44,916 bases of DNA from a virus. The position numbers were made by a program, and so were the translations under genes. The stretch spans positions 1-44,916 of IMG/VR virus record IMGVR_UViG_3300005841_000046. The stretch is one strand, 5' to 3'. Within the stretch, counting starts at the first letter, position 1. Each line of letters begins with the position of its first letter. Below, one piece after another: positions 8,222 through 36,924 of this stretch. The notes under the pieces were generated by a model that worked only from the letters and a program-made list of their open reading frames with translations, was not told the origin of the DNA and ran no database searches.

Positions 8222-9198
8222 GCGTTGTTCGCCCGCTGGCGCTCGGCCTCGACGCGCTCCTCAGCGGACTTGAACGCCTTGGTCACGAGGGATCTCGCGT
8301 CGCCCTTGGGTATCGACTCCCACCGGGCCTTCATCTCGGCCTTCGTGCTCTCGAGGATGTCGCTCGTGGTGCAGGCGTCGAACAAATCGATCAGCGCGAT
8401 GTGTGGGGCCGGTCCTGGCGCGGATGCCGCTGCGGTTTGCGGAGCGCTCGTCACAACGTCGTCGCCCTTGGCCCACCGGGCGAGACGCTCTCCGATGTCC
8501 TCGTCGAGCTGTCGGGGCTTCTCGAACAGGTGGCGGAACCAGCCGGGCAACTTCATGAGCGCCTGCTCGCCGAGCTTCTGGGACCGCCACGTCGGCACAC
8601 CGTCAACGCCGGGCAGGAGCAGAACGTTGACCAGCATCTCGAAGATCAGATCCTCGGCCCCGAGCGCGGACCATCCCATGTCGACGGGCTTGTTGGTCTT
8701 GTCGTCGGGGATAGTCTTTTCCTTGGCCCGGAAGCAGAAGATCCAGTGAACGCGCTGCTGCAGGATGAAGTTCTTCATCTCGCGGTGCTGTCGCTTGGGC
8801 TCGATCCACGCAGCCATGGAGTGGCTATGCCCCTTGGCCGCGACCACCGCGGCATGCTGAGCAAGCACGCCACCCTCACCCTCGTGCTCATGGCTCATGC
8901 TATCGGTGATAATCACCGACGGTTTGTAGGTCAGCGCGTGCTTGTACGCAGCGATGTAGTCGAGAGGCGAGAACGGAGGCGAGAACGGCACGTGGATGAA
9001 CTTGTGCGCGTCGGCATGCATCGTGGCCCGCATCGCCTCGGTGTCGATCACCACGATGGGGCCCGGCGTCACACGCGCGATCCCGTCGGCGAGGCGAAGT
9101 GCCGACTTCGTCTTGCCGCTTCCGGTCGCTCCGGCCGCGCCGATCATCAGTGGCAGGCCGACCCGGCGAGCAGGTCCGCTCTCGAACGTCCTACTCAT
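8218..9198 (-). CDS. RecA-family ATPase, Sak4-like annealase
   Basis: 326 residues. Walker A is GATGSGKT at 23-30; Walker B is VIITDSMSHEHEG at 95-107, the aspartate followed by S-x-S-H-E typical of the phage Sak4 group. The start ATG was chosen because the P-loop begins shortly after it and it overlaps the exonuclease stop by eight bases. Family knowledge: Sak4 proteins are single-domain RecA-like ATPases that promote single-strand annealing in phage recombination, often with an SSB and an exonuclease. Here it directly follows a PD-(D/E)XK exonuclease, giving a Red-like pair. The C-terminal 80 residues are Ala/Glu-rich and helical. No SSB was recognised in the operon. Confidence 0.82.
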   Translation of the reverse strand: MSRTFESGPARRVGLPLMIGAAGATGSGKTKSALRLADGIARVTPGPIVVIDTEAMRATMHADAHKFIHVPFSPPFSPLDYIAAYKHALTYKPSVIITDSMSHEHEGEGGVLAQHAAVVAAKGHSHSMAAWIEPKRQHREMKNFILQQRVHWIFCFRAKEKTIPDDKTNKPVDMGWSALGAEDLIFEMLVNVLLLPGVDGVPTWRSQKLGEQALMKLPGWFRHLFEKPRQLDEDIGERLARWAKGDDVVTSAPQTAAASAPGPAPHIALIDLFDACTTSDILESTKAEMKARWESIPKGDARSLVTKAFKSAEERVEAERQRANNA

Positions 9199-10165
9199 CG
9201 ACGGTGAATCCTTCCTGCATCTTCCTCCACCTGGTGAGGTCGATGTTTCGTCGCGTGACGTCGTCGTGGTACCCGGGCCACCGACCGTCGGCAATACCGC
9301 GGCCCCACATGTCGATCGCCGTGAGCCACTGCCGTGAGCCGAGCTCCGTGAACGCTCCGGTTGGAGTTGGGTCCCAGAACGCGTACGGGCGGTGCGCCTC
9401 GCAGAACAAGAACTGATACTCGATGCGGCCGGCGAGCGATGGGAACAACGCGTTAATGGCGCGCAGGCGCGCGGCGTGGGCGATCTGGTGCCCGAGCGCG
9501 TCGGCAGTTCGCTCGTTACGGTCGGGCTGTGCATCGTCCGGGAACTTCAGCTCGTACACCTTGGCGAAGGTCGGCGGCGCGCCCGGTGCGACGTGCGACC
9601 CGTCAGCTGCCAGAAGCAGGACGTGATCGATCATCGTGCGGCATTGCACCGGTCCGTTCGTCGAGCGCTCCCACCACTCGATCGCGATCTCGCTCCTGCC
9701 ATCGAGCACGTGACCAGCGCCGGCGAGCCGCGCGCGAATCGCGTCGACGGTTCGCCGGTATACGATCATGTCGGGCTCCTTGACCGGGATCTTTCCGGCT
9801 GCGCGCGCGGAGTCGCGCAACTCCTTGGAGCGGGTTGTCGTGTACTTTCCGCCCTTGCCGAGGTCTGCGCTCAGGATGACCTCGATGTTCTTGCCGACCC
9901 CTAGGGTGAGCGCGTGCATGACGTCGCCGCGATCGAGCCTCTTCTGTTTCTGCGGGTCGACGGCGCGCTCCTCGTCGCCGTCCTCCTCCTCGTCATCCAC
10001 GCGATCATCCTCGATGTTGCGCTCGTACTTGTCGCGGGCGATCTCCTGGCAGCTCGTCAACATCGTGTTGGCGAGCGACGGCGATAGCCCAGGGAGCTTG
10101 TGGTACTGCGCCGGCGTGACGTCAAGGATCCTCGGTGGTGGCGTGTCGCTCACGGTGTCGCTCAC
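9191..10165 (-). CDS. PD-(D/E)XK exonuclease of RecB/Cas4 type
   Basis: 324 residues from the GTG that overlaps the preceding stop (GTGA). Motifs in order: GDVMH (H84), a catalytic Asp in RTMID (D180), E205-L-K207 in VYELKF, and GHQIAH (Q227), i.e. the H...D...ExK...Q pattern of RecB-like PD-(D/E)XK nucleases. Residues 51-75 are a very acidic insertion. The GTG start sits in a 12-bp direct repeat, so a second in-frame GTG lies four codons later. Family knowledge: these nucleases resect duplex ends to supply single strands for the annealase, here the Sak4-like protein encoded next. An alternative longer frame upstream is Arg-rich and overlaps a better gene, so it was rejected. Confidence 0.8.
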   Translation of the reverse strand: MSDTVSDTPPPRILDVTPAQYHKLPGLSPSLANTMLTSCQEIARDKYERNIEDDRVDDEEEDGDEERAVDPQKQKRLDRGDVMHALTLGVGKNIEVILSADLGKGGKYTTTRSKELRDSARAAGKIPVKEPDMIVYRRTVDAIRARLAGAGHVLDGRSEIAIEWWERSTNGPVQCRTMIDHVLLLAADGSHVAPGAPPTFAKVYELKFPDDAQPDRNERTADALGHQIAHAARLRAINALFPSLAGRIEYQFLFCEAHRPYAFWDPTPTGAFTELGSRQWLTAIDMWGRGIADGRWPGYHDDVTRRNIDLTRWRKMQEGFTVDE

Positions 10166-10377
10166 GGTGTCGCTCGCTGTTCTCGCCGTGCCGGACTCAC
10201 GCCACGGCGGCGGTTGACGTCTCCGACGTGGAGCATGCTTGCGATCTTGGCGAGCGCTCGATCGTCGTCGAGCACGCCCTTCGCGTGCGCCACTATGACG
10301 CCGCGGATCTTCGCGAGCGTGTCCCGGGCGCGGTCTCGCTCGTTCCTCGCGCGGTCGCGCTCTTGTGTCGGGGTCAC
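10162..10377 (-). CDS. Small charged coiled-coil protein
   Basis: 71 residues from GTG, overlapping both neighbours by GTGA. N-terminus is a repeated R/D/E heptad-like helix (ERDRARNERDRARDTLAKIR), a pattern common in short phage proteins of early regions; C-terminus is basic. No enzyme motif. Confidence 0.6.
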   Translation of the reverse strand: MTPTQERDRARNERDRARDTLAKIRGVIVAHAKGVLDDDRALAKIASMLHVGDVNRRRGVSPARREQRATP

Positions 10378-10538
10378 GCGTCACCAGCCTTTGCGCCATC
10401 GACGGCGCGTGTAACCAGCTCGAGCAGCATCACGTGCGCGACGGTCAGCGACCCGCATCGGGACTCGATGTGCAGCGCGGCCATCGGCGCGACTGAGCGG
10501 TCATCGGCGCGGCACGCGGCGCAGCGTGGCGACCGCAT
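10374..10538 (-). CDS. Very small protein with CxxC
   Basis: 54 residues. ATG overlaps the stop of the upstream gene as TGATG and the stop overlaps the next start as GTGA, so both ends fit the operon's coupling pattern. Begins MRSPRCAACRADD, with a CxxC and a third Cys (SRCGS), then a helix rich in Leu/Val. Possibly metal-binding. Function unknown. Confidence 0.5.
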   Translation of the reverse strand: MRSPRCAACRADDRSVAPMAALHIESRCGSLTVAHVMLLELVTRAVDGAKAGDA

Positions 10539-12758: not shown

Positions 12759-13936
12759 TGCGCGTCAACGTCGACGACATCGCGTTCATGGACCGCCGGT
12801 TCAAGCTGCTCGGCGGCAGGCTCGGCATGGCGTGGCAGGAGGCGCTCGGCAGATGCCTTCCGGTCTGGGCGCTCGCATACGCGAAGCGCACGCCGATCCT
12901 GCCGGCCGGCGACATTGACGCGCTGGCGGAACGTACAGGCTTTGCCGCGGCGATGGTGGCCGTTGATCTGGCGAGCGAAGAGCCATCGGATGGTGTGTAC
13001 CTATGTGGGGTAAATGACCGCATAGACTTCCTACTGATGCAGGACGCCAAGCGGGAGAAGGCTCGCGAGGCGCGGCTCGCAGCGGTTGGAATCAAGAAGT
13101 CCCCGGGACCATCCCGCGGGAAGCGAAACGAGTCCCCGGGACCATCCCGCGGGGAAGTCCCCCGGACGGGGTCCTACTCTCCGGATCTTGCTCCGGATCA
13201 TCTTCCGGATCTTGAAGATCAGAAAGTCTCTCTCCCGCGCGATCCCTCAGTACCGGTACCGCACCAGCCGGTGACACCAGCTGCGATAGACAACAGCAGG
13301 GCGCAAGCCATGCGTGGCAATACGCCCCAGACCGAAAATGGAAAGAATCTTCCAGTTCCCGGGATCGGAAACCACGACCCGGATTGCAACCGACCCCGGA
13401 TTTTGCAACCGACCCCGGATTTTGCAACCGATGCTCAAGAGCCTCGAAGCGAACCAGAACGACCCCGCCGGAAAACCATCCCAACGTCCGAAGACCGCCG
13501 GGCGATCCGCGAGGAGATCCGTGGGTTGATCAATGCGGCAAGAACGCGCGTCGGGGGGAGGCTGGGGACGACGCTGTATCCATGCCTGCCGTTCGACCGC
13601 GGGCTCGACAGCGACCTGTCTGGACAGCTCGCGCTGGCCACCACGCGCACTGAGCTCGAGGCGATCGCGGCCCAGGCTCGCCATGCAGTTGCGATGGCGG
13701 AAATCGAGGCCGTCGCCGATCCAGAGCGCGTCCAGTTCCTAACCGGAGCGATCTTCGCCGGCGGTAACTTCGCCCGGCTCGCCGGCAAGACGGCCGCGAC
13801 AGCTGCGCTCGTGAGGCCGCGCGCTGGTCCGAAGAGCAGCGCGGCGCGCGCGCCGGAGAATCGAGACATCCGGGTTGGAGCCGTCCAGCCCAGTGACCCA
13901 AGCCTGTATCCCGACGGAGTGATCGAAATCCCATGA
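12758..13936 (+). CDS. Putative replication initiation protein (lambda O-like)
   Basis: 392 residues. N-terminal about 100 residues resemble the winged-helix region of phage O/DnaD-type initiators (WQEALGRCLPVWALAYAKR, then LAERTGF...AVDLASEEP). A long Pro/Asp-rich low-complexity linker (about 115-250) is encoded by DNA full of direct repeats, then a helical C-terminal domain (about 250-345). It overlaps by ATGA with a DnaC-like loader, the same order as lambda O and P. In lambda the origin iterons lie inside O, and the repeats here occupy the equivalent place. The assignment rests on context, linker repeats and weak fold cues, not on a strong family motif. The ATG at 12758 was preferred to the TTG one codon upstream. 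Confidence 0.65.
   Translation: MRVNVDDIAFMDRRFKLLGGRLGMAWQEALGRCLPVWALAYAKRTPILPAGDIDALAERTGFAAAMVAVDLASEEPSDGVYLCGVNDRIDFLLMQDAKREKAREARLAAVGIKKSPGPSRGKRNESPGPSRGEVPRTGSYSPDLAPDHLPDLEDQKVSLPRDPSVPVPHQPVTPAAIDNSRAQAMRGNTPQTENGKNLPVPGIGNHDPDCNRPRILQPTPDFATDAQEPRSEPERPRRKTIPTSEDRRAIREEIRGLINAARTRVGGRLGTTLYPCLPFDRGLDSDLSGQLALATTRTELEAIAAQARHAVAMAEIEAVADPERVQFLTGAIFAGGNFARLAGKTAATAALVRPRAGPKSSAARAPENRDIRVGAVQPSDPSLYPDGVIEIP
13098..13153 (+). repeat. 33-bp-spaced direct repeats in the replication gene
   Basis: A 23-bp unit beginning AGTCCCCGGGACC occurs at 13098-13120 and identically at 13131-13153, period 33 bp (11 codons, encoding SPGPSRG twice). Each unit contains the palindromes CCCGGG and CCGCGG. 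Part of the candidate origin. Confidence 0.75.
13180..13215 (+). repeat. Three tandem 12-bp repeats (TCCGGATCTT type)
   Basis: Units TCCGGATCTTGC, TCCGGATCATCT and TCCGGATCTTGA follow each other at exactly 12-bp spacing. TCCGGA is self-complementary, so each unit is a small palindrome. Iteron-like spacing inside the replication gene. Confidence 0.75.
13375..13428 (+). repeat. Iteron-like 19-bp tandem repeats (candidate origin)
   Basis: CGACCCCGGATTTTGCAAC occurs twice in exact tandem (13391-13409, 13410-13428) and is preceded by a shortened copy CGACCCGGATTGCAAC (13375-13390). The T-run makes these the most AT-containing stretch of the linker. Position inside the O-like gene parallels the lambda origin. 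Confidence 0.75.
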
Positions 13937-14706
13937 CGAACCTGAAGCTCGTGCCTGAGGAACCCGACGACGACCAGCGGCCAGCGACCGAACGCGACGA
14001 CAGCCGAGCGCGCGCCGAGAGGTCTGCCGCTGAGCTCGTCGCTGAACTCATGCCGGGCGTCTCGAGCATGACCGACGAGGAATGGGCCGCGCACGACGCG
14101 CGGATCGCGGCTTTGCGGGCGGCGGAACCGGCCGGCGATCAGCGCTCGGAGCGGATCGGTGCACTCGCTGAGCGCGGGTTCCCTGCGCGGGCGATCGCCG
14201 CTCTGCGGGGCGGGGCGGTCCCGCCGGCGGGCATCACGTGGTACGAGCGCATGCGCGCCTCTGCGATCGGCATCGTCGTGATCAGCGGCCCAAAGGGCGT
14301 CGGCAAGACGGTGGCGGCGACCTGGCTTGCGGCGGCGCGCACCGAGCCCTGGCGCTTCGTCCGCGCGGCGAGCCTGCTGGCGTCATCGCGCTACGACCGC
14401 GTCGAACGCGAACAACTGTTCTCTGGCCCGCTCGTGCTCGACGACCTCGGGGCCGAGTACGCCGACCCCAAGGGCTCATTCCTGGTCGATCTCGACGAGC
14501 TAGTGGACGTGTTCTACGGCGCCATGCGGCCGCTCGTGATCACGACCAACGTGCTCGCGAGCGAGCCGGCATCCGAGCCCGGCGGCAAGCCGAGACACCC
14601 GTTCCGCGAGCGCTACGGCGAGCGGATCGCCGACCGGCTCCACGAGTGCGGACGATGGGTCAGCATGACCGGCGAATCATTGCGACGACGACCGACGACG
14701 AAGTGA
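13933..14706 (+). CDS. DnaC-like helicase loader ATPase
   Basis: 257 residues. Walker A GPKGVGKT at 119-126, Walker B LVLDDLGA at 167-174, sensor-1 LVITTN at 201-206 and an arginine-containing RYGERIADRL box at 227-236: the AAA+ order of the DnaC/IstB group. The first 110 residues are variable and probably bind the initiator or helicase. Role: loads the replicative helicase at the origin. No replicative helicase is seen in the window, so the host DnaB is the likely client. Coupled to the initiator by ATGA overlap. Confidence 0.85.
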   Translation: MTNLKLVPEEPDDDQRPATERDDSRARAERSAAELVAELMPGVSSMTDEEWAAHDARIAALRAAEPAGDQRSERIGALAERGFPARAIAALRGGAVPPAGITWYERMRASAIGIVVISGPKGVGKTVAATWLAAARTEPWRFVRAASLLASSRYDRVEREQLFSGPLVLDDLGAEYADPKGSFLVDLDELVDVFYGAMRPLVITTNVLASEPASEPGGKPRHPFRERYGERIADRLHECGRWVSMTGESLRRRPTTK

Positions 14707-17055: not shown

Positions 17056-17288
17056 GCGCGACCTTCGATCCTCCGTGCCCGAAGTGCGGTGACTCGTATT
17101 GCGAACCGTGCCCGCGTTGCGGCGCGTGTGGCTCGTGCGACTGCAAGCCGGTGACGACCACGGCTACCGGCGTCGAGGGTGCATGCGAGGAGTGCGGAGA
17201 ACGCGTGAGGGCCGGCCAGCCAATCGCCGTGTACGCCGATGACGTCGTTGTGCACGAGCTCTGCCCGCGGCAGAGGGCGCAAGCGTGA
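17052..17288 (+). CDS. Small multi-Cys (double zinc-ribbon-like) protein
   Basis: 78 residues from GTG with twelve Cys. CPKCGDSYCEPCPRCGACGSCDC forms a dense cluster, then CEECGERV and a final HELC. Probably two small zinc sites or a metal cluster. It is directly coupled to a radical SAM gene, so an iron-sulphur or partner role is worth considering. Unknown. Confidence 0.6.
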   Translation: MSATFDPPCPKCGDSYCEPCPRCGACGSCDCKPVTTTATGVEGACEECGERVRAGQPIAVYADDVVVHELCPRQRAQA

Positions 17289-18298
17289 ACGTGCTCCTCT
17301 GGCACCTCGACGGCAAGCTGCCTAACCTGGCGCTGATGCGGATCGCCGCGCACCACCGAGGGCAGGGCGATGACGTCACGCTCAGGATGGTCAGCAACCG
17401 ATCGGGGATCGATGCCGCAGCCTATCGCGAGATAGAGCCGCGATTCGGTGATCCGACGTGGGGCCGGGTGTACGCGTCGGCGATCTTCGACCGCTCGGCG
17501 CCGCTGCTGTCGAGGATCGGCGAGTTGTACCCGTCGGCCATCGTAGGTGGAACCGGATCCGCGAAACTCGGCCTGTCGCTGCTCGACGTTGGCATACAAG
17601 ACGGTCCCCTCGACTACTCCGACTACCCTGCGTGGCGGCAGTCGATCGGATTCACCATGCGGGGATGCCGGTTCAAGTGCGATTTCTGTGTCGTGCCGCG
17701 CAAGGAGGGCCGTGCGCGCGCGGTCGGTACCATCGCCGAGATCTGGCGCGGCGAGCCGTGGCCTCGCCAGCTGCTCTTGCTCGACAACGATTTCTTCGGC
17801 GGTGAGCACTGGCAGGAGCGAATCGCGGAGATTCGCGACGGCAGGTTTCGCGTATCGTTCATGCAGGGCATCAACGCCAGGATCCTGAGCGACGAGGCAG
17901 CTGCCGCTATCGCAAGCGTCGACTACCGCGCCGACGATATGAAGGAGCGACGCATCTACACCGCGTGGGATGCCAAGGGCGACGAGCGCGTGCTGTTCCG
18001 TGGTCTACGCCGGCTCGTAGACGCCGGCGTGAAGCCGGACCACATCATGGTCTACATGCTCGTCGGTCACGCGCTCGGCGAGACCCACGATGAGCGCGAT
18101 CATCGGCGCCGGTTACTCCGCGAGTTCGGCGCGCGCCCGTACCCGATGCCGTTCGTTCGTACGCCGGAGCTCGTCGGGTTTCAGCGCTGGGTGATCCAGG
18201 CGTACGACAAGGGCATCCCGTGGGCAGCGTGGAAGGCCGCCGGCTACTCGCCTAGACGGCTCGGTGACCGCTACACGCTTCCCCTGGTGACGCCGTGA
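17285..18298 (+). CDS. Radical SAM protein
   Basis: 337 residues from GTG. Cluster motif CRFKCDFC at C128, C132 and C135 (CxxxCxxC) preceded by GFTMRG. The N-terminal about 110 residues resemble the B12-binding-type Rossmann region found in MiaB-like and related radical SAM proteins (LMRIAAHHRGQGDDV, AIVGGTG), although no cobalamin DxHxxG motif is seen. The centre contains LLLLDNDFFGG and INARILSDE, typical of the barrel. Substrate unknown; tRNA/rRNA, nucleoside or peptide modification are all possible. Such proteins are found in several high-GC phages without assigned function. Confidence 0.75.
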   Translation: MNVLLWHLDGKLPNLALMRIAAHHRGQGDDVTLRMVSNRSGIDAAAYREIEPRFGDPTWGRVYASAIFDRSAPLLSRIGELYPSAIVGGTGSAKLGLSLLDVGIQDGPLDYSDYPAWRQSIGFTMRGCRFKCDFCVVPRKEGRARAVGTIAEIWRGEPWPRQLLLLDNDFFGGEHWQERIAEIRDGRFRVSFMQGINARILSDEAAAAIASVDYRADDMKERRIYTAWDAKGDERVLFRGLRRLVDAGVKPDHIMVYMLVGHALGETHDERDHRRRLLREFGARPYPMPFVRTPELVGFQRWVIQAYDKGIPWAAWKAAGYSPRRLGDRYTLPLVTP

Positions 18299-19045: not shown

Positions 19046-20157
19046 GGCAGATACCCGCGATCGTCGAGCCGGCGCAGGTCGATCTCGACCTCATCGGCAA
19101 GCAGCTAGATGTCGCGCTCGCCGGCAGGGCGGATGCCGAACGGACCACCGAGCGGCACGAGAAGGCCGCCGCGGTGTCGCGCGAGACGGCGCGCATGCGG
19201 CGCCTCGAAATCGGGCAGCTGCTCACGCGCGCCCGCGGGGCATGGCCGGCGCGCGGCCCAGCGCCCAATGGAGTGGCCGGCAGCTGGGCCGAGTTCCTCG
19301 CCGCCCACAAGCTCGACGACGCCACCGCACGCCGGTACATGGACGAGTACCGCGACCCCGAGGGTTTCGCTCATAAGCCGCGCGTGAGCGAAACCCAGCG
19401 CGGCGACATCGAGGATGACGACGACCAGACCGGCGCCAAGGCCCCGCATCCAGTGCCCCCGGCGCAGGTGCTGTTCACCGAGCTCACCGCCGACCAGGTT
19501 ATCGACGCTATCAAGCGCCTCAAGCCAGAGGATCGCAAGCGCGTGCTTCGGGACGGCAAAGCGAACGCAAAGGGTGGCAGCGGTGAGGTGGATCGCGGTA
19601 CCTGGTGCACGAGCTCCGAGTGGGCGCGGGCCATCGGGACGTGGGATCACGACCCGTTTTCTAATCCACGTTCCCACATCGCGTCGGTGACCAGGTGCAT
19701 GCTCGAGGACGGAGGCGACGCGTTCGGTGGAGGCAGGCCCGGAGAACACCCTGGGAACTACCTGCTCGGCGAGCGACACGGATACCGAAGCGGCGTCGCC
19801 GACGAGCTCACCCGCGTCTGGATCCAGCCGCCTTACGACCTCGTACCGCAGGCGATCGCCCACTACGGGCACACGCGGTTCTGCGCGCTGCTTCGCTGGA
19901 GCCCTGACGTCAAGGCGTGGTTCCCGGATCTGTGGCGCCGAACGGCTGTCGTTTGCCACCCGTTCGGTGAGCGCATGGAATTCGAGCCTCCGCCGGGCGT
20001 GGAGAAGTCGGGCGATATGCCGTTCCCACACGCGCTGTTATACGCCCATGCGGCGGACGTGACGGATGAGGTTCGCGCCCGCTGCATCGTGCACGAGGTC
20101 GACCACGAGCGCTGCGACCCTGCGATCCTGCGCTCGGCACTGAGGCTCGTCGAGTGA
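19042..20157 (+). CDS. Phage-type N6-adenine methyltransferase-like protein
   Basis: 371 residues. The N-terminal region (about 30-105) resembles DUF3102-like domains of phage methyltransferases (RRLEIGQLLTRAR, SWAEFLAAHKLDDATARRYMDEYR). The C-terminal half matches the phage Dam family (PF05869-type): TWCTSSEWARAIGTWDHDPFSNP at 187-209, the catalytic-type box WIQPPYD (Q262-P-P-Y265) and CALLRWSPDVKAWF. The usual catalytic box is D/N-PPY; a Gln there is odd. Possible roles: protection of phage DNA from restriction, marking of replicated DNA, or a non-catalytic relative. The DNA between the two halves carries a 12-bp-arm inverted repeat. Confidence 0.7.
   Translation: MRQIPAIVEPAQVDLDLIGKQLDVALAGRADAERTTERHEKAAAVSRETARMRRLEIGQLLTRARGAWPARGPAPNGVAGSWAEFLAAHKLDDATARRYMDEYRDPEGFAHKPRVSETQRGDIEDDDDQTGAKAPHPVPPAQVLFTELTADQVIDAIKRLKPEDRKRVLRDGKANAKGGSGEVDRGTWCTSSEWARAIGTWDHDPFSNPRSHIASVTRCMLEDGGDAFGGGRPGEHPGNYLLGERHGYRSGVADELTRVWIQPPYDLVPQAIAHYGHTRFCALLRWSPDVKAWFPDLWRRTAVVCHPFGERMEFEPPPGVEKSGDMPFPHALLYAHAADVTDEVRARCIVHEVDHERCDPAILRSALRLVE
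19362..19396 (+). repeat. 12-bp-arm inverted repeat, copy 1
   Basis: GGGTTTCGCTCA (19362-19373) and TGAGCGAAACCC (19385-19396) pair perfectly around an 11-base loop. It lies in the methyltransferase gene between its two domains. The core GGTTTCGCTCA arms recur around 26182-26214. Confidence 0.8.
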
Positions 20158-20274: not shown

Positions 20275-20568
20275 ATGCTCGTCGCCGATCCCGGGACCGT
20301 ACTGCATCCCGAGGAGCGCGGCCCGCGCGGCGTCTATGCGGCTCCGAATGAGGTTGTCAGGGCTATCCATACCACGATGACGCGCTACACCGACGTCGTC
20401 GACCTTCCGGCGCCGCAGCCCGGAGTCTACCTCGTGGTGTCGATGGTGGTCCCGCCGGTCGCTGCAGCGCGCGGGCGCTGGACCGGAGATCTCCTGACGC
20501 CAGGGCAGCAGGTGCGAGACAGCGCCGGACGCGTGATCGGCTGCCGCAGCCTCGTCCGGGTATCGTAG
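20275..20568 (+). CDS. Hypothetical beta-rich protein
   Basis: 97 residues. Reads as an SH3/OB-like beta protein (GVYLVVSMVVPPV, GQQVRDSAGRVIGCRSLVRV). A TATAGA-like box lies directly upstream of the start; no Shine-Dalgarno is visible. Last gene before the first structured leader. Confidence 0.55.
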   Translation: MLVADPGTVLHPEERGPRGVYAAPNEVVRAIHTTMTRYTDVVDLPAPQPGVYLVVSMVVPPVAAARGRWTGDLLTPGQQVRDSAGRVIGCRSLVRVS

Positions 20569-20708
20569 TCCGGAGTGTTGCGATCCGTATCCAGTGGCGT
20601 GAGGATCTTGCGTCACTCGGTGCGGGTCGTAGCGAAGCGTCGCTCGTGATGTCGCGATGTTGGTCCACCAGATCATGCGGCACGCCGCAAGCAATATTGA
20701 CGGTCATC
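20569..20708 (+). promoter_or_regulatory. Structured leader, copy 1 (homologous to 22856-22996)
   Basis: 140 bases between a stop codon and the next ATG. It begins TCCGGAGTG; CCGGAGTG (20570-20577) can pair with CACTCGG (20614-20620), and GATCC (20582-20586) with GGATC (20603-20607) inside. CCGTATCC is in the loop region. A second hairpin AGCGA/TCGCT (20631-20644) starts 62 bases in. The 3' box GGCACGCCGCAAGCA (20679-20693) ends 16 bases before the ATG. A TATCGT box just upstream (20561-20566) would start RNA near the base of the first stem. Every element has a counterpart at the same offset in the second leader. No good Shine-Dalgarno at the ATG. Function unknown. Confidence 0.65.
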
Positions 20709-21065
20709 ATGAAGATCACCGACCAGGAATCAATCATCGCCTATCTCCGCGCCACCGGCCGCGAAGAACTCATCCATTACGCAGGCGCCATGCACCGCGA
20801 CCCGGCTGCGGCCGCGATGATCCGCGAGTACCTCGCCGACCCCGCGGCGCCGGCGCATGTCCTGACCGCGCGCCGGCTGGGCCTCACCGCCAGGCAGGTC
20901 GACGAGGCGAGCCAGTGCTACGACCCAGCGGCCCGCGCCCGGCTGTCGACCGACTACTACGGCGCCGACGGATGGCCCGTGCCTGGCGTGCCGGATGTCG
21001 CCGTGCATCCCGATGGCACGGTCTCGCAGTCGATGGAGCGTCCCGGAGACAGGCAGGAGATCTGA
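20709..21065 (+). CDS. Hypothetical protein, first gene after leader 1
   Basis: 118 residues from the ATG in cggtcatcATG, the same sequence context as the gene after leader 2. Helical (TDQESIIAYLRATGREEL, AAAAMIREYLAD, HVLTARRLGLTARQVDEA: possibly a small HTH-like unit), C-terminus a Pro/Gly-rich extension. No known domain. Expression likely controlled by the leader upstream. Confidence 0.6.
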   Translation: MKITDQESIIAYLRATGREELIHYAGAMHRDPAAAAMIREYLADPAAPAHVLTARRLGLTARQVDEASQCYDPAARARLSTDYYGADGWPVPGVPDVAVHPDGTVSQSMERPGDRQEI

Positions 21066-21068
21066 TCC

Positions 21069-21290
21069 GTGAGCGACACCCGCCACATCGAGTATGCCCG
21101 CGCGTGCACCGCGATGCGGAGCCTGTCGATAGCGATAGCGCAGCTGCAGGTGGCACGTCGAGAGATTTCTGTGACCGCAGGCGAGCAGCGCAAGGCGGTC
21201 AAGGACCTCGACGAGGCGACGATCGCAGCACAGCGCGCGTACCGCGATCTCGAGCACGTGATCGCCACCATCGGAAGGAGCGCGACATGA
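21069..21290 (+). CDS. Small helical protein
   Basis: 73 residues from GTG, three bases after the previous stop. Long amphipathic helix with Arg/Glu/Asp (SIAIAQLQVARREISVTAGE, QRKAVKDLDEATIAAQRAY). Probably a coiled coil. Function unknown. Confidence 0.55.
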   Translation: MSDTRHIEYARACTAMRSLSIAIAQLQVARREISVTAGEQRKAVKDLDEATIAAQRAYRDLEHVIATIGRSAT

Positions 21291-21505
21291 GCGAGAGCGA
21301 AGCGGTAACGGAACGACTACGTACCCTGCAAGCGCGGCTGGCCGGAGCGCCCGAGTACACGGCAGGGCGCGCGGCGGAACGCTGTCCGGATGGCCCCCTG
21401 CGCGAGATGCGAAACGCCTTCCAGGCTGGCGCCCTCGAGCAGATCTGCCGGTCGGCGGCCGACGAGATCGCGGCGATCATCCGGCAGCTGGAGGTGTCCC
21501 GATGA
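21287..21505 (+). CDS. Small helical protein
   Basis: 72 residues, ATGA overlaps both sides. Helical, with VTERLRTLQARLAG and LEQICRSAADEIAAIIRQLEV; looks like a dimerising coiled coil. Unknown. Confidence 0.55.
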   Translation: MSESEAVTERLRTLQARLAGAPEYTAGRAAERCPDGPLREMRNAFQAGALEQICRSAADEIAAIIRQLEVSR

Positions 21506-21729
21506 CGGTCGCGATCACCGCGGACAACCTGACCGACGAGCAGATCAGAGTCGCCCGGAGGGCATTCCGGGAAGAGATCGAGGTCCTGATCGGACTGGTC
21601 AAGGATTGCGACGAGATATTGGTGTTTCAAAAACGCCTCGATGCCGGCCTGCCTCAAACATCGCGTGTTGATGGCGCCCGAGCCAGCATCGCCGACGCGA
21701 TCAACGCCCGCGCGAAGGCGGTGCGGTGA
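21502..21729 (+). CDS. Small helical protein
   Basis: 75 residues, ATGA overlap. Acidic helices (DEQIRVARRAFREEIEVLIGL, CDEILVFQKRLDAG). Unknown function. Confidence 0.55.
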   Translation: MTVAITADNLTDEQIRVARRAFREEIEVLIGLVKDCDEILVFQKRLDAGLPQTSRVDGARASIADAINARAKAVR

Positions 21730-21947
21730 TGACTGCCGTAGCTCTCGCCGGGGCGTGTGTTGTCGGCGGCGTCGCGCTCAGCGCTCTCGTGTTCCGAGCA
21801 CTGATCAATCGGATCGTCCTGCAGATCACCGTGCGCGTCATCATCGACGATGGCGATGGCGTCGAGGTGGCGTTGCCGCCTCGCACGCTGGGGCAGGTAA
21901 AACGGCGGGCAGAGGTTTTGTGGTCACGATCGGAGGTTCGGTCGTGA
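21726..21947 (+). CDS. Small membrane protein
   Basis: 72-73 residues; GTG overlaps the prior stop and an ATG follows immediately, either may start. Two closely spaced hydrophobic parts: about 3-24 (TAVALAGACVVGGVALSALVF) and a weaker one, then a soluble tail (DDGDGVEVALPPRTLGQVKRR). Role unknown. Confidence 0.55.
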   Translation: MMTAVALAGACVVGGVALSALVFRALINRIVLQITVRVIIDDGDGVEVALPPRTLGQVKRRAEVLWSRSEVRS

Positions 21948-22762
21948 AGGACATGGGCCGCATCGTCGAAGAGATCCAGAGCGACGCCAACGCGCGCGAC
22001 AAGTCCTGGACAAGCGAGCGTCTACCCCAGGCAGATCCGACGCGCAGGCAAGCGCAGCCGTACCCGCTGCCCGCGCCGCTCAATATCGACGACCTACTCG
22101 AGCTCGCGGCCAAGGCCAAGTCGGCATGGGGACCGCGCGTCGTCGAGCTCAGCGACCATGAGGCGTTCCAGCTCGGCGAGGGATGCCAGCTGCTCGCGAG
22201 CGCGCTGGACGAGGAGCGCAAGCAGCGGGCGGCGGAACAGGCGGCGCGCGCGCAGGTCACGCGAGAGACCACGGACCAGATCGCCCGGCTGTGCTCGCTC
22301 GTGGACGATCTGCGGTGTGAGCTGAGCGAGCGCAAGGCCAAAACGCTCGACCTCGAGCGCCGCATCACCGCGGCCAACGACCAGGCCGAGCGCGATGACG
22401 CTGACCTACTGGCCGCCGAGCATGCCTGCCGATACGCTGAGCGAGCGCTCCACGAGCTCCAGGAGAAGGTGGTCGGCGCGATGACCGACCTGCCAAGCGC
22501 GCCATCGATGCCGGCCGGCACGCCGGCGTACGAGTCGAGCGCCTACGAGCTGCCCGATGACGAACTCGCCTGGTTCGTCGCCCAGGCGCGAGATGAGCAG
22601 CGCCTGAACGGGATCGTCCACCCGCTTGCAGCGCTTGCCGACCGGGTGGAATCTCTCAGAGGTGGCGGTGACCAGCATGCTGCCCGTAGGGACGGCCAGA
22701 TGGTGCGAGTGGTGCTCGAGAGCGACTTCGACGCGCTGATGGCGGCCGTCGGTAGCTCGTGA
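21944..22762 (+). CDS. Long coiled-coil protein
   Basis: 272 residues from GTG. A disordered N-terminus, then about 60-230 a helical rod rich in Ala, Glu, Arg and Gln with heptad spacing (EERKQRAAEQAARAQVTRET, RITAANDQAERDDADLLAAE), then a more compact Leu-rich C-terminus (DDELAWFVAQARDEQRL). Similar to DUF-type ead/Ea22-like early phage proteins in texture, but no specific match can be claimed. Last clear gene before the second leader. Confidence 0.6.
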   Translation: MKDMGRIVEEIQSDANARDKSWTSERLPQADPTRRQAQPYPLPAPLNIDDLLELAAKAKSAWGPRVVELSDHEAFQLGEGCQLLASALDEERKQRAAEQAARAQVTRETTDQIARLCSLVDDLRCELSERKAKTLDLERRITAANDQAERDDADLLAAEHACRYAERALHELQEKVVGAMTDLPSAPSMPAGTPAYESSAYELPDDELAWFVAQARDEQRLNGIVHPLAALADRVESLRGGGDQHAARRDGQMVRVVLESDFDALMAAVGSS

Positions 22763-22806
22763 CCGGATCAGTCCTGCACCCGATCGCGCCGGGACAGCGG
22801 ATCTGA
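22759..22806 (+). CDS. Possible 15-residue peptide before leader 2
   Basis: GTG in a GTGA overlap with the coiled-coil gene; peptide MTGSVLHPIAPGQRI then stop. Fits the coupling pattern of the operon but is too short to judge by composition. Confidence 0.25.
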   Translation: MTGSVLHPIAPGQRI

Positions 22807-22855
22807 TCGCATTGTTAGCACCGTTACGTCAAGTGTCTGGCGCTATGGGATGTTG

Positions 22856-22996
22856 TCCGGAGTGTGTCGACCCGTATCCGGTTGGTGTGCCGATCGTGCA
22901 ACACTCCGGAATCTGTGGCGCTTTGCGCCGCGTGTGAACACAACAACTTGCACGCGCCTACAGCGTGGCACGCCGCAAGCACTACCCAGGATCATC
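22856..22996 (+). promoter_or_regulatory. Structured leader, copy 2 (homologous to 20569-20708)
   Basis: 141 bases ending at an ATG. Perfect 9-bp stem CCGGAGTGT (22857-22865) with ACACTCCGG (22901-22909) enclosing CCGTATCC and a GTTGGTGTG run that matches copy 1. A second hairpin GGCGC/GCGCC with TTT loop (22917-22929) starts 61 bases in, and GTGTGAACAC follows. Box GGCACGCCGCAAGCA (22967-22981) ends 16 bases before the ATG, the same as copy 1. TATGGG (22844-22849) upstream would start RNA at about the first stem base. A GTCAAGTG like the operator halves at 11407 lies 5' of it (22828-22835). Confidence 0.65.
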
Positions 22997-23182
22997 ATGA
23001 CCCCGACCACTGACAAGATCGTAGCGTACCGTGGACTCAAGCTGCGCCGCCGCCAGCGCGGTACCGAGGTGCTGTGGCAGGCTGCCGACGCCTCCCCCGA
23101 TTGGGGATACTGGTACTCGACCGCGCGCCAGGCCGCGCAGGATAGCAATTCGTCCGATCGCGTGGTCGGAGGTGCGTCGTGA
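22997..23182 (+). CDS. Small protein after leader 2
   Basis: 61 residues with aggatc before the ATG. Reads KIVAYRGLKLRRRQRGTEVLWQ then DWGYWYSTARQAAQD; a small mixed fold. No similarity by eye to the gene after leader 1 beyond the first residues. GTGA overlap with the next gene. Confidence 0.55.
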   Translation: MTPTTDKIVAYRGLKLRRRQRGTEVLWQAADASPDWGYWYSTARQAAQDSNSSDRVVGGAS

Positions 23183-25862: not shown

Positions 25863-26206
25863 TCGCGGCCGTTCGGATCGGCACGAAGGTGTTCCGCCTG
25901 GGCGTCGATCAGCTGCTCCTCTCGCCCGCCGCGCTGCACGAGCGCACGCCGCGTCCGGGATCCGAGTGGCTCGAGCTCCAGATCCGGTCCGTGCTCGCGG
26001 CACCCGAGCACTGGGCCATGCAGCGCGATGAGCGCGGGTTCGACCTGCTGTCGCTGGCGCAGGCGCAGCAGCGGCGCGCGCACCTCGAGCGCGTGGCGCG
26101 CAACCTGACGCCCGAGCAGCACGCCGAGCTGTGGCAGGACACGAGCCAGGAGGCAGCCGAGCTCCGCGCTGTGGTACGCGGGGTTTCGCTCACGAACGGT
26201 CGGTGA
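25859..26206 (+). CDS. Hypothetical helical protein
   Basis: 115 residues. N-terminal strand pair (IAAVRIGTKVFRLGVDQLLL), then helices (SEWLELQIRSVLAAPEHWAM, QAQQRRAHLERVARNLTPEQ). Its last codons lie in the left arm of the second copy of the inverted repeat. Confidence 0.55.
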   Translation: MIAAVRIGTKVFRLGVDQLLLSPAALHERTPRPGSEWLELQIRSVLAAPEHWAMQRDERGFDLLSLAQAQQRRAHLERVARNLTPEQHAELWQDTSQEAAELRAVVRGVSLTNGR

Positions 26207-26214
26207 GCGAAACC
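26182..26214 (+). repeat. 12-bp-arm inverted repeat, copy 2
   Basis: GGTTTCGCTCAC (26182-26193) and GTGAGCGAAACC (26203-26214) pair perfectly around a 9-base loop, straddling the end of a gene. Arms match those at 19362-19396 in 11 of 12 bases; loops differ. A CTACCGT box follows at 26218. Confidence 0.8.
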
Positions 26215-28306: not shown

Positions 28307-28677
28307 TGCCCACGATCGAGCCGCTCTACGACCGCATGCTCGTCCGCCTGCTGCGCCCCGAGGAACGCACCCGGTCCGGGCTCTACGTCCCGCAGATGGC
28401 GACCGACAACACGCCGTACCTCAAGGCCGAGGTGATCGCGGTCGGCCAGGGACGCATCACGACCGCGGGGACCACGGTTCCGCTGCTTGTCGCGGCCGGT
28501 GACGTCGTGGTGTTCTTCCGAGCGCCCTCGAGTGGCGAGCAGCTGATCTACCCGACCGATGACGGGTCCGAGCAGATGCTGATCCGCGAGAGCCATGTCG
28601 CCGGAATCATCCGCGGGCTCGACAAGGTGACGTCGATCGTCGACGTCGACGGCGGGGCTCTGGAGCTGCCCTCGTGA
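28306..28677 (+). CDS. GroES-like co-chaperonin
   Basis: 123 residues; TGATG overlap with the GNAT-like gene. PLYDRMLVRLLRPEERTRSGLYVPQMATDNTP and AEVIAVGQGR then GDVVVFFRAPSSGEQLIY match the Cpn10 fold: N-terminal strand, mobile loop (about 20-35, SGLYVPQ) and the GxG...V-A...D-x-V-x-F/Y-x core. Family knowledge: phage co-chaperonins such as T4 gp31 replace GroES to fold the major capsid protein. The mobile loop is present, so it could pair with host GroEL. Location upstream of head genes fits. About 25 extra residues at the C-terminus. Confidence 0.8.
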   Translation: MPTIEPLYDRMLVRLLRPEERTRSGLYVPQMATDNTPYLKAEVIAVGQGRITTAGTTVPLLVAAGDVVVFFRAPSSGEQLIYPTDDGSEQMLIRESHVAGIIRGLDKVTSIVDVDGGALELPS

Positions 28678-31930: not shown

Positions 31931-33796
31931 GTGGACGCCGACCTCGAGCTCTTGCGCCAGGCGCGCGAGCGGCGGCTCGAGCAGGCGGCGAAGCTCCGCG
32001 CCGAACAGGATGAACTCGAGCGACTGCGCGCCGCAGCGACAGCAGCAGCGCAGGCAGATGCCGCGCGCGCCGATCCGGCGGCGGACCCGGGCGATGCCGC
32101 CGGCAAGCGCATCCAGGAGCTCGTGGACACGCTGCGCGCCTTCTACCACCCGAAGCAGCGCGGGTTCTTTCGCTCGCCGGCGAAGCAGCGGGCGACCAAG
32201 AAAACGCGGCGGTCCGGCGCCACGGCCGGAGGATGCCGCGAGCTCATCGCGCGCGCGGTGGAGCACCCTCGGTTCCGCGCCGTGTACATCACCGAGACCC
32301 GCGTGATCGCCGCGAAGCGCGCGTGGAGAAACGACACCAACAGCGGGCTCGTCGACATCATCGAGCGCTATGGCACGCGGCTCGATGAACCCGGCGTCCC
32401 CAAGTTCGATCTCGGTGGCGTCATCGTGGAGGTCAGGCAGGGAGAACTCGCGCTACGCTTCGGCAACGGATCCATGATTGAGCTGTTCGGCGCCGACGAC
32501 GAGGCGGCGATCATGGACCTGCGCGGGCTCGCGAAGCACGTCTACTGGGTGGACGAGGCGCAGGATTTCCGGTGGCTAGAGCGGCTCTACCGCGCGGTCA
32601 TCATGGCTGGGATGTCGGACTTTGGGGCCGAGTGCTGGCTCACCGGAACGCCGAGCCGAGACCTGGTCGGGATGTTCTACGAGGTCACGCGCGACGACGA
32701 ATCAGAGCGCTCGAAGGGATGGGAGGTCCACGAGCTCACCGTCACGGACAACCCGTTCTTCGGGCGCGTAGTGTGGGAGGTCGGGCGTTGGTACGTCGAG
32801 GACAACCTGTATGACCAGCCCGGGATCGAGCGCTCGACGCACGCGTGGTCGCCGGCCGAAATCTCGGAGGGAGCGCACCGCTGGGGCCCGTTCGCCACCG
32901 AAGACGCCGCGGACACGGCGGCGATCGCAGTCCGGTGGGAGCGCGCGGCGGCCGCGGCGATCCGCAAGAACGGGCTGGCCGACGATGACCCGGACGTGCT
33001 CCGCGAGTGGAAAGCCCGCTGGGTCAAGGAGGGCGCGCGTTACGTCTACGAGCTCCATAAGGTGCCCGAGCACGAGATCGTCTACGCGCCGGTGCGGCTC
33101 GCGGCCGATGGGTTTCCGGACCTGCGAGCGGCGATGCTGGACCTGCCAGAGCGGCGCGGTGGGCGCGAGTACTTCCTCGCGCTCGGAGCAGACCTCGGGA
33201 CGCGCGCGGCGTTCGCGTTCGTGATTTGGGCCTGGTCTCTCAGGGACCCGATCCTGTACGAGCTCGCGAGCTGGAAGCGGGCCGGGCTCGACTACGACGA
33301 GATGGCCGGCCACCTCCATGCGGTGCGCGCGCAGGTCGGCATCTCGCTCTGGACGGCGGACGCCGGCGGCGGCGGCAAGCCTGCCGTGATGGGCTGGAGC
33401 AAACGGTGGGTTGACCGGTACCATCTGCCGATCATCGAGGCGACGAAACAGAACAAACGGATCGCACAGAACCAGCTAAACACCGACATCCGCAAGGGTT
33501 TGCTGAAGCTGCGCAAGGACTCCGTGCTCATGGTCGAGTGGAAGGCGCACCGATGGAAGCCGCTCCGCACCGAGGACGGCCGGGAGGTTGAAGACAGCAC
33601 GCCGCACGACGCGAGCGACGGCGGGCTGTACGCACACCGGGAGTCGTTCCATCACCGGTACCGACCAGATGAGCCAAAAATCGTGCCAGGAAGTCCGGAA
33701 GCGGTTATAAGGGAGGAGCGAGAACTTGAGGCGTCAATCTGTGGGCCAGAAGACACACAAGGAGACCCGTACGGTAGCTACGGAGCTTACCGGTGA
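31931..33796 (+). CDS. terL: Terminase large subunit
   Basis: 621 residues from GTG. ATPase half: Walker-A-like KKTRRSGATAG (90-100), Walker B VYWVDE (204-209) and coupling motif LTGTP (237-241). Nuclease half: LGADLGTRAAF with D421, WTADAGGG about 475, and HDASDGGLYAH with D560 and D563, the RNase-H-type acidic residues. It packages DNA into the procapsid through the portal and cuts the concatemer. The P-loop lacks the usual GK[T/S]; Lys residues lie just before it, as in deviant P-loops such as that of lambda gpA. The first 45 residues form an extra coiled coil. No confident small subunit was found nearby. Confidence 0.87.
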   Translation: MDADLELLRQARERRLEQAAKLRAEQDELERLRAAATAAAQADAARADPAADPGDAAGKRIQELVDTLRAFYHPKQRGFFRSPAKQRATKKTRRSGATAGGCRELIARAVEHPRFRAVYITETRVIAAKRAWRNDTNSGLVDIIERYGTRLDEPGVPKFDLGGVIVEVRQGELALRFGNGSMIELFGADDEAAIMDLRGLAKHVYWVDEAQDFRWLERLYRAVIMAGMSDFGAECWLTGTPSRDLVGMFYEVTRDDESERSKGWEVHELTVTDNPFFGRVVWEVGRWYVEDNLYDQPGIERSTHAWSPAEISEGAHRWGPFATEDAADTAAIAVRWERAAAAAIRKNGLADDDPDVLREWKARWVKEGARYVYELHKVPEHEIVYAPVRLAADGFPDLRAAMLDLPERRGGREYFLALGADLGTRAAFAFVIWAWSLRDPILYELASWKRAGLDYDEMAGHLHAVRAQVGISLWTADAGGGGKPAVMGWSKRWVDRYHLPIIEATKQNKRIAQNQLNTDIRKGLLKLRKDSVLMVEWKAHRWKPLRTEDGREVEDSTPHDASDGGLYAHRESFHHRYRPDEPKIVPGSPEAVIREERELEASICGPEDTQGDPYGSYGAYR

Positions 33797-35013: not shown

Positions 35014-36924
35014 GTGCGCCGCGCGTACCTGCGCGGGTACCACGCGATGGACCTCATCCACGAGGCCATCTACGAGGGCAGGCCCGTGGGCCGCCGGCTC
35101 GGGACCGCCGCCATGGACTTCCTGCGCGCGCAGAGCAAGGCCTCGAGCTATCTCAACCTGATCCAGTCGATGATCGACACGGTGGTGTCCCGGATCGGGA
35201 AGCACCGCTCGATGCCGATCATCTCGGCCGACGACGCCGAGTACAGCGAGAAGCTTTACGCGCGCCGCGCGAGCCGCGTGATCCGCCGCAAGATGGGCTC
35301 GCCGAACATTGAGCGTACGATGCCGCTCCAGCTCCGCGACGCGGTGGTGCGCGGTGACGGGTTCGCGGAGATCCTGCGCATCGGCGGAGACGTGATCCCC
35401 GAGCGTTTCCCGCGGAGCGAGCTCGTATTCGACGACGGTGAGCCGCGGCACAACGACTGGCCGTGGACGCTCGCTCGCGTGAAGCTGATCGACCGCGACG
35501 TGCTTGCAGCGAAGTTCCCCGACGCCCGCGAGCGCATCATGAAGTGCGCGCCGGCAACGCGGGACATCTGGGCGCCGTACGACTACGACGCGCCGATCGA
35601 CAAGGACCAAATCGAGGTCATCAAGGCATGGCGCCTGCCGAGCTTCCCCGGGGCCGACGACGGCAAGAACCTCATCGGCATCCGCGACCAGGGACCTCCG
35701 CTCAAGGAGAGCGGGTGGAACCGGCCGCGCTTCCCACTTGCGCGCGTGACATGGACGCCGGCGCTCCGCGGTTTCCTCGGTATCGGACTCGTGCAGCAGC
35801 TCGCGGGATCGCAGAACAAGGTCAACGAGCTGTGGAGCGACATCCAGACCGCGATCTACTGGGGGTCCGGCCTGAAGATCTTCGCGCGCCGCGGATCGAA
35901 CATCAACAAGGGGCACCTGCGCGCGCGCGATCCGGTGGTGATCGAGACCGACGACACCGATCCGAAGTTCATCGCGCCAAACCCGGCGAGCCAGCAAGCC
36001 ATCGAGAATCTGCGCTGGCTCATCCAGGAGATGTACGAGATCGCCGGCATCAGCCAGCTCGCGGCCTCGAGCAGGAGCCCGCTGGGTCCCAACGCATCGG
36101 GCAAGGCGCTCGACACGATGGATGACCTCCAGAGCGACCGGTTCTCATACCTCGATCTCCAGTATTCGATGAGCCGGGTGGACTGCGGCACGGCAATGAT
36201 CGACGAGGCGAAGATGCTCGCGGCCGAGGCCGACGACAAGAAGTCCAAGGCCGCGCTCGCGCCATGGATCCGCGACATCGACTGGGACAAGTTCGACTTC
36301 GACAGCGGGGGATTCCACCTCAACATCGAGCCGATCAACTTCCTGCCCGAGGCGCGCGCCGGCAAGCTCGACACGCTCGGCGACATGATGAAGATCCCCG
36401 GGCTATTCTCGAACCCGCTGCTGATCGCCAGCCTGTTCGACGAGCCCGACATCGCCGGCGCGAACCGGCACATGCTCGGCCCAGTCCGCGCGCTCCAGAA
36501 GCTGGCTGAGATGCTGGGCGACCTATCGGTGCCGCTCGAGGACTGCGTGCCCACGCCGTTCATGCTCACGCCGCCGGGACTCGCGAAGGAGATCATCCTG
36601 GGCGAGTACAGCAACGCCTTCGCCGAAGGCGCCAAGGACGTCTACCTCGGTCGCTACCGCTGGTTCCTGCAGATGCTCGACGGTCTCGAGAAGCAGCTGG
36701 CACCGCCGCCGATGGATGCAGGAGCCGCTATGCCCGGTCCCGGCCAAGGTCCGGGACCGGTCGGCCAGATGCCGCCGGGACTGCCGCCCGGCATGGCAGG
36801 CCCCATGGGTCCCCAGGGCCCGCCAGGCGCCCCCGGACCGGCCGGGTTTCCCGATCCGCTCGGCGGCGGCACCGCCCAGATCGCCGCCGGCATGCCCACG
36901 CCGCTACCCCCAGGAGTCTCATGA
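35014..36924 (+). CDS. Portal protein
   Basis: 636 residues from the GTG. Contains portal-typical text (SSYLNLIQSMIDTVVSRIGKHRSMP, SRSPLGPNASGKALDTMDDL, GLVQQLAGSQNKVNELWSDIQ) and belongs to the podovirus/other ~600-residue portal group. It forms the dodecameric DNA entry ring at the capsid vertex. The same frame has clear coding signal for another 45 codons upstream (to a TGA at 34864-34866: RVGRQYDHGPKDAAGDGRGW, SGEEALDALWQWSDV), but no ATG, GTG or TTG occurs there. Residues about 570-620 form a collagen-like Gly-X-Y run (GPGQGPGPVGQMPPG, GPMGPQGPPGAPGPAG) that may be exposed. Confidence 0.85.
   Translation: MRRAYLRGYHAMDLIHEAIYEGRPVGRRLGTAAMDFLRAQSKASSYLNLIQSMIDTVVSRIGKHRSMPIISADDAEYSEKLYARRASRVIRRKMGSPNIERTMPLQLRDAVVRGDGFAEILRIGGDVIPERFPRSELVFDDGEPRHNDWPWTLARVKLIDRDVLAAKFPDARERIMKCAPATRDIWAPYDYDAPIDKDQIEVIKAWRLPSFPGADDGKNLIGIRDQGPPLKESGWNRPRFPLARVTWTPALRGFLGIGLVQQLAGSQNKVNELWSDIQTAIYWGSGLKIFARRGSNINKGHLRARDPVVIETDDTDPKFIAPNPASQQAIENLRWLIQEMYEIAGISQLAASSRSPLGPNASGKALDTMDDLQSDRFSYLDLQYSMSRVDCGTAMIDEAKMLAAEADDKKSKAALAPWIRDIDWDKFDFDSGGFHLNIEPINFLPEARAGKLDTLGDMMKIPGLFSNPLLIASLFDEPDIAGANRHMLGPVRALQKLAEMLGDLSVPLEDCVPTPFMLTPPGLAKEIILGEYSNAFAEGAKDVYLGRYRWFLQMLDGLEKQLAPPPMDAGAAMPGPGQGPGPVGQMPPGLPPGMAGPMGPQGPPGAPGPAGFPDPLGGGTAQIAAGMPTPLPPGVS

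Follow-up and report, generated by a model that had tools for sequence, protein, structure and literature searches.

Two copies of a probable DNA promoter cassette precede unrelated small genes in a viral DNA of 44,916 nucleotides, the full length of IMG/VR virus record IMGVR_UViG_3300005841_000046 (the window; 66.9% G+C). In a preliminary description these copies, at positions 20569-20708 (copy A) and 22856-22996 (copy B), were presented as homologous structured RNA leaders. Comparison with related phages indicates that they are almost certainly DNA promoter cassettes rather than RNA leaders, and that they probably operate by an enhancer-dependent mechanism of the sigma-54 type. Each copy would comprise a 16-bp core of the -24/-12 type, TGGCACGNNNNRAGCA, followed by NTA, and the core would be bound by a host RNA polymerase holoenzyme, most likely one containing sigma-54 (RpoN) or a variant of this factor particular to the lineage. 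About 56 bp upstream, a palindromic enhancer of about 53 bp, built of GGAGTGTKGCG half-sites, would bind a dimeric or oligomeric activator, which would be a host bacterial enhancer-binding protein (bEBP) if the sigma factor is RpoN, and which would contact the polymerase through looping. The symmetric enhancer could drive one box or two divergent boxes, and transcription would start 2-5 bases before the ATG, to give a leaderless or nearly leaderless mRNA. The phages would have copied the cassette before different small accessory genes.

When read directly, the two copies align from TCCGGAGTG through to the ATG start codons (20709 and 22997). Conservation between them is concentrated in two blocks, an inverted repeat of about 53 bp and a box of 15-16 bp, and the 56-bp spacer between palindrome and box is poorly conserved. 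The outer inverted repeat is present as described, pairing CCGGAGTG (20570-20577) with CACTCGG (20614-20620) in copy A and TCCGGAGTGT (22856-22865) with ACACTCCGGA (22901-22910) in copy B, and CCGTATCC is found in both copies. A 15-mer, GGCACGCCGCAAGCA, is identical at 20679-20693 and 22967-22981; GGCACGNNNNRAGCA occurs at only two places in the window, namely the two copies, where 0.14 would be expected. In copy A, the putative palindromic activator site, which consists of two back-to-back dyads and can be aligned with its homologues in a set of 14 copies, spans 20569-20621 (TCCGGAGTGTTGCGATCCGTATCC...GATCTTGCGTCACTCGG). It is followed on the plus strand by a conserved TT step (GTTGG, 20660-20661, about -43 from the predicted start site) and by the core box CGGCACGCCGCAAGCA (20678-20693), with the -24 GG at 20679-20680 and the -12 GC at 20691-20692. 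The -24/-12 geometry, bounded by the start codon at 20709, predicts a +1 at 20704 with an uncertainty of about 2 bases. In copy B, the putative activator site lies at 22856-22910 (TCCGGAGTGTGTCGACCCGTATCC...GATCGTGCAACACTCCGGA), the TT step (CTTGC) at 22948-22949 and the core box TGGCACGCCGCAAGCA at 22966-22981, again on the plus strand, and the same geometry predicts a +1 at 22992, give or take about 2 bases, before the start codon at 22997.

Homologues of the cassette were found in nine related IMG/VR phage contigs, the window included, and in three further relatives, each short or distant. IMG/VR was scanned with two independent patterns, one for the left half of the palindrome and one for the box, and both scans converged on the same contigs; all eight contigs found by the palindrome pattern also hold the box. 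The contigs of the relatives were fetched in full or nearly so. Terminase, portal and capsid are common to most of them and the window, so they are assigned with it to one phage clade. Contig G005 is a fragment that shares other genes with the window, and the box is also present in a shorter relative (G013) and in two distant ones (G012 and G014). Further IMG/VR matches, in L007, L009 and L010 and, for the box, in L015-L017, L019-L022, L024, L026 and L028-L031, lack the palindrome and were set aside as apparent chance or coding matches.

Across 25 copies, the box can be written TGGCAYR-N4-RAGCA (T G G C A C/T G/A N4 R A G C A, then N T A). The GG-N10-GC spacing is found in all 25 boxes, and the -24 element TGGCACG in 22, with the other three one base off. 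The boxes match the sigma-54 consensus TGGCACG-N4-TTGCW at 9-10 of 12 positions, and the chance of at least 10 of 12 matches in a random 30-bp stretch of the same composition is about 2e-3. TGGCAC-N6-AGCA occurs shortly before an ATG 15 times in 9 contigs, and with no other spacer length. Scores from a position weight matrix are bimodal, such that the 25 boxes score at least 20.3 and all stand before genes, and everything else scores 17.5 or less. Little is conserved in the 60 bp before the box apart from the T at -17 (15 of 17 aligned copies), and in some copies a TT step lies one turn further upstream. Positions -43 and -53 from the start are those known for alpha-CTD contacts, and the TT step may mark such a contact position.

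With the C of GC taken as -12, +1 corresponds to box position 27, and the start codon is found at box position 29-32 in 16 of 17 copies; at G003:34205, the ATG at position 32 corresponds by homology to the start of the window gene. The leaders at G010:2459, the one exception, and in G011 are longer, and carry a Shine-Dalgarno-like sequence from about position 29 or later, which provides an independent bound on the start site. The start context TCATCATG, as first described, holds for one variant, but most relatives have CATG, with the ATG at box position 29.

In nearly all copies, 55-57 bp separate the edge of the palindrome from the box, on either side. The exceptions are 49, 77 and 78 bp, of which the latter two represent an addition of 21/22 bp, or two helical turns. 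Most copies have the palindrome centred about 82 bp before the box, or at about -108 from the predicted start site. Two one-sided copies, at G010 7438 and in G013, are 97-98 bp from the distal half-site, compared to the usual 106-109 bp. Most of the steps in spacing approximate one helical turn or two (Rayleigh R 0.87 at 10.5 bp, 18 copies). A single palindrome is flanked by divergent boxes, one on each side, in G003 and G004, and the G002 box lies on the other strand from the CCGTATCC half. At L018 10273-10325, about 30-40 bp before a divergent gene, three GGAGTGT half-sites are clustered with no box; this may be a target that the same regulator controls through another arrangement.

The palindrome can be exchanged. 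Contig G011, from a distant phage, holds four or five copies of the box, far more than expected by chance (4 versus 0.03 in the first 20 kb), and three of these are paired with an unrelated 31-bp palindrome, GGTCAACGC-N13-GCGTTGACC, at about 45 bp from the box. In G012 and G014 the palindrome is missing or different. Since G011 pairs the same box with a different palindrome, the box is read as the core promoter and the palindrome as an exchangeable activator site. One shared polymerase would recognise the box, and the upstream element would be bound by different proteins.

That the copies are transcribed as a structured leader, be it a riboswitch, a protein-binding leader or a small RNA, is very improbable. 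The palindromes are able to fold as RNA, and copy A folds better than shuffled sequence (z -3.6 to -5.6). However, of the two terminal stems proposed earlier, that of copy A is skipped by the minimum-energy fold, and that of copy B is used in a fold that barely beats its own shuffles (z -1.4). Among ten relatives, the whole leader mostly folds like shuffled sequence (z -2.3 to +0.8). The outer stem, compared over 10 pairs in 14 aligned palindromes, contains no compensatory changes, with no pair changed on both sides. Substitutions in the right half break pairing rather than repair it, and the left half is fixed, in part through ascertainment, as it overlaps the search pattern. RNAalifold retains no helix except for three almost invariant pairs. 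The second hairpin, in which compensatory change had been claimed, falls within the spacer, which is not conserved, and has disappeared from the closest relative, so its arms in copies A and B are not homologous; it is lost in the direct homologue of copy A in G003, and in the G003 homologue of copy B it is destroyed, with the spacer energy going from -18.7 to -6.6 kcal/mol.

The layout of the cassette also argues for an element that acts as DNA. Boxes are found on either strand at equal distance from the palindrome, contrary to the strand-specific placement of a 5' untranslated region, and in G003 and G004 the palindrome also serves the opposite-strand box at a near-constant distance, which points to DNA geometry. 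A search of Rfam returned nothing notable even at a relaxed threshold. The -10-like hexamers that were proposed to start the RNA at the first stem did not withstand comparison: a sigma-70 scan was negative near both copies, the hexamer of copy A is the 3' end of the upstream open reading frame 20275-20568, and no shared -10 is found in the 40 bases before the palindrome among 14 homologues. In short, the proposal of a duplicated cis-regulatory element before unrelated genes holds, but its RNA nature is not supported, given the lack of covariation and the use of both strands.

The box is not filed as a canonical sigma-54 promoter because its -12 element is RAGC in every copy, but it appears, from its sequence and placement, to work like one. 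Its reader is probably an RpoN with a different -12 preference, in a host of high G+C content. The position of the palindrome fits published distances for upstream activating sequences, which are 70-150 or 80-150 bp (PMC3844500, PMC7910581), and its centre, about 108 bp before +1, is where sigma-54 enhancers are normally found (PMC3844500, PMC7910581, PMC7057263). Several results weigh against a sigma-54 assignment. Of the two features held to be essential in sigma-54 promoters, GG and TGC (PMC3844500), these boxes depart from the second, with RAGCA at -12 in 25 of 25 and TTGC in none. The conserved T at -17 and the TA at 18-19 lie outside the textbook core. The helical phasing is not significant (p about 0.1) once the copies are collapsed to four spacing classes, and the G008 copy at 49 bp is off phase. 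The activator domain of bEBPs (PF00158) was not found in 13 contigs, most of unestablished completeness, nor was Sigma54_DBD (PF04552) in 9 contigs, a search that did not extend to G011-G014. Moreover, boxes of the RAGC type show no excess in 392 Planctomycetota genomes. Given that no phage-encoded bEBP or RpoN was found, both would come from the host.

The same departures could mean that the cassette is an activator-dependent promoter for another holoenzyme, with an alternative host sigma or a phage specificity factor in place of RpoN, which would recognise TGGCAC-N6-AGCA-N-TA and for which the palindrome would still be the activator site. This is rather unlikely, even though all 25 boxes differ from TTGC at -12 in the same way, the extra TT at -17 and TA at 18-19 are conserved, and RAGC boxes are limited to a set of phages most of which are relatives of one another. 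Sigma-54 promoters have exactly this GG-N10-GC spacing and this TGGCACG half, the start codons agree with the predicted start site, and neither a sigma factor nor an RNA polymerase is among the matches listed (Pfam and PHROG, 25 families each; 87 shared families). The geometry of sigma-70 or extracytoplasmic function (ECF) promoters fails as well: there are no conserved -35/-10 columns with 16-18 bp spacing, the sigma-70 scan finds none, and an ECF -10 placed at box 24-29 would put the transcription start within the gene. Another reading, in which palindrome and box are operators for a single phage repressor of the Cro/CI helix-turn-helix type that loops the DNA and keeps the genes shut until induction, with the promoter itself unrecognised, is improbable. 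HTH_31 or HTH_3 proteins are present in several of these phages, the box distantly resembles a half-site (GGCACGCCGCAA versus GGAGTGTTGCGA) and fixed spacing suits a loop, but the box stays constant where the palindrome is replaced (G011), missing or different (G012, G014). In addition, the stretch from palindrome to ATG contains no other conserved promoter element, and a scan for half-sites places no palindrome at the helix-turn-helix genes.

There is scarcely any likelihood that the palindrome is a site of recombination or replication (attP, a resolution site or an origin) that lies near gene starts by chance. A sequence resembling a tRNA 3' end does lie beside the palindrome in G001 and G008, but many genomes carry two or three copies, nearly all at a fixed distance from box and start codon, and no crossover core is shared beyond the half-sites. 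A sequence of this kind, GGTTCGATCCCGGCCCGATGCACCA, was seen directly upstream of the palindrome at about 8440-8470 of L003 (minus strand) and at the homologous place of L018. It may be an attP; no complete tRNA is recognised there by ARAGORN.

The boxes are followed by small genes (60-171 amino acids in most cases) that mostly do not resemble one another; movement or copying of the cassette is therefore independent of the gene. Copy A precedes a gene for a 118-residue protein (20709-21065, plus strand) that has homologues in G003, G005, G002, G010 and L012 and matches no Pfam or PHROG family; copy B precedes one for a 61-residue protein (22997-23182, plus strand) of no known family. A motif like IxALxxEAxxAGDxxxxxLCxRAL was noticed by eye in small proteins after several boxes (G003 34370+ and 32183-, G002 12557+, G011 36929-). 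In the window, both accessory genes lie between the replication and packaging modules. Landmarks are the exonuclease VIII (9191-10399, minus strand), a DnaC-like loader (13933-14706), a radical-SAM protein (17285-18298), the terminase (31931-33796) and the portal (35014-36924). A second repeated palindrome with perfect arms, GGTTTCGCTCA-N11-TGAGCGAAACC, was seen at 19363-19395 and 26182-26214 of the window, once within an open reading frame and once at a gene junction, with a further copy at G003 28526-28558 and a degenerate one at G013 9056. No cultured phage is close by terminase, portal or capsid, and no plasmid by terminase. Among the genome contigs of 84,980 species, the palindrome has 10 matches, about the number expected by chance, and none is followed by the box in the stretch read.

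Reuse of the cassette suggests a tie between phage accessory genes and enhancer-dependent, sigma-54-like transcription in bacteria. More tentatively, and with less than even confidence, this phage lineage may run sets of accessory genes from enhancer-dependent -24/-12 promoters whose -12 element is changed to RAGC, through near-leaderless mRNAs and host activators that respond to a developmental or stress signal of the host, and unrelated phages may do likewise with canonical sigma-54 boxes. If so, phage expression would wait for an ATP-driven host activator, and the accessory genes would be tuned to the physiology of the host. A search of open-access full text found no account of phage genomes that carry repeated promoter/enhancer cassettes of the sigma-54 type, which is not proof of absence. 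The pattern TGGCAYRNNNNRAGCANTA with an ATG at position 29-32 can be used to search for other phages with hosts of the same group.

A control scan for the canonical -12 (TGGCACR-N4-TTGCW) in the same leaderless frame identified two further phages. Contig L170 (66% G+C), for which no protein relation to the window clade was seen, has four TGGCACG-N4-TTGCA boxes in 13.6 kb against 0.01 expected (6507, 7296, 10557 and 13283, plus strand), 29-45 nt before start codons, with primase and HNH genes; two of the four share an upstream dyad, GGGAATCCGGCSGGATTC. Contig L167 (37% G+C) has five canonical boxes in 14.9 kb against 0.00 expected, with genes for a DNA methylase and helicase-like proteins; those at 2072, 4634, 6397 and 7564 are on the minus strand, three of them shortly before genes. 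Like the window clade, both carry several -24/-12 boxes per phage, most just upstream of start codons, but their -12 is the canonical TTGC and no GGAGTGT palindrome was noticed. These batteries make phage use of -24/-12 promoters credible in general, and phage-borne promoters of the sigma-54 type may be general. Most matches to the canonical box are palindromic repeats (...TTGCATTAGCA...CATGCCA) and not leaderless promoters. Repeated palindromes of the form TGGCACG-N4-TTGCATTAGCA-N-CATGCCAA were seen in L152, L156, L161, L162, L164, L166 and others; they read as overlapping divergent sigma-54-like sites and are possibly a dispersed repeat family.

Among known systems, the likeness to Rfam riboswitches and leaders is merely formal, in that these too have inverted repeats upstream of genes; the cassette has neither covariation nor a family match, and is independent of orientation. 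Leaderless promoters of Deinococcus-Thermus, in which a -10 element adjoins the open reading frame (PMC12340547), resemble it in having a core at a fixed short distance from the ATG; unlike them, the cassette is not of the -10 type and has a distal palindromic activator site. Another close system is that of enhancer-dependent sigma-54 promoters with an upstream site for a bEBP, for example the natural-product promoters of Myxococcus xanthus activated by Nla28 (PMC7910581). These promoters share with the cassette TGGCACG at -24, the GG-N10-GC spacing, the A at -11, and a repeat-type activator site about 70-150 bp upstream that can be exchanged between promoters. In contrast, every copy of the cassette has RAGCA at -12 instead of TTGCW, and the cassettes are carried on phage genomes and in most cases would start transcription essentially at the ATG.

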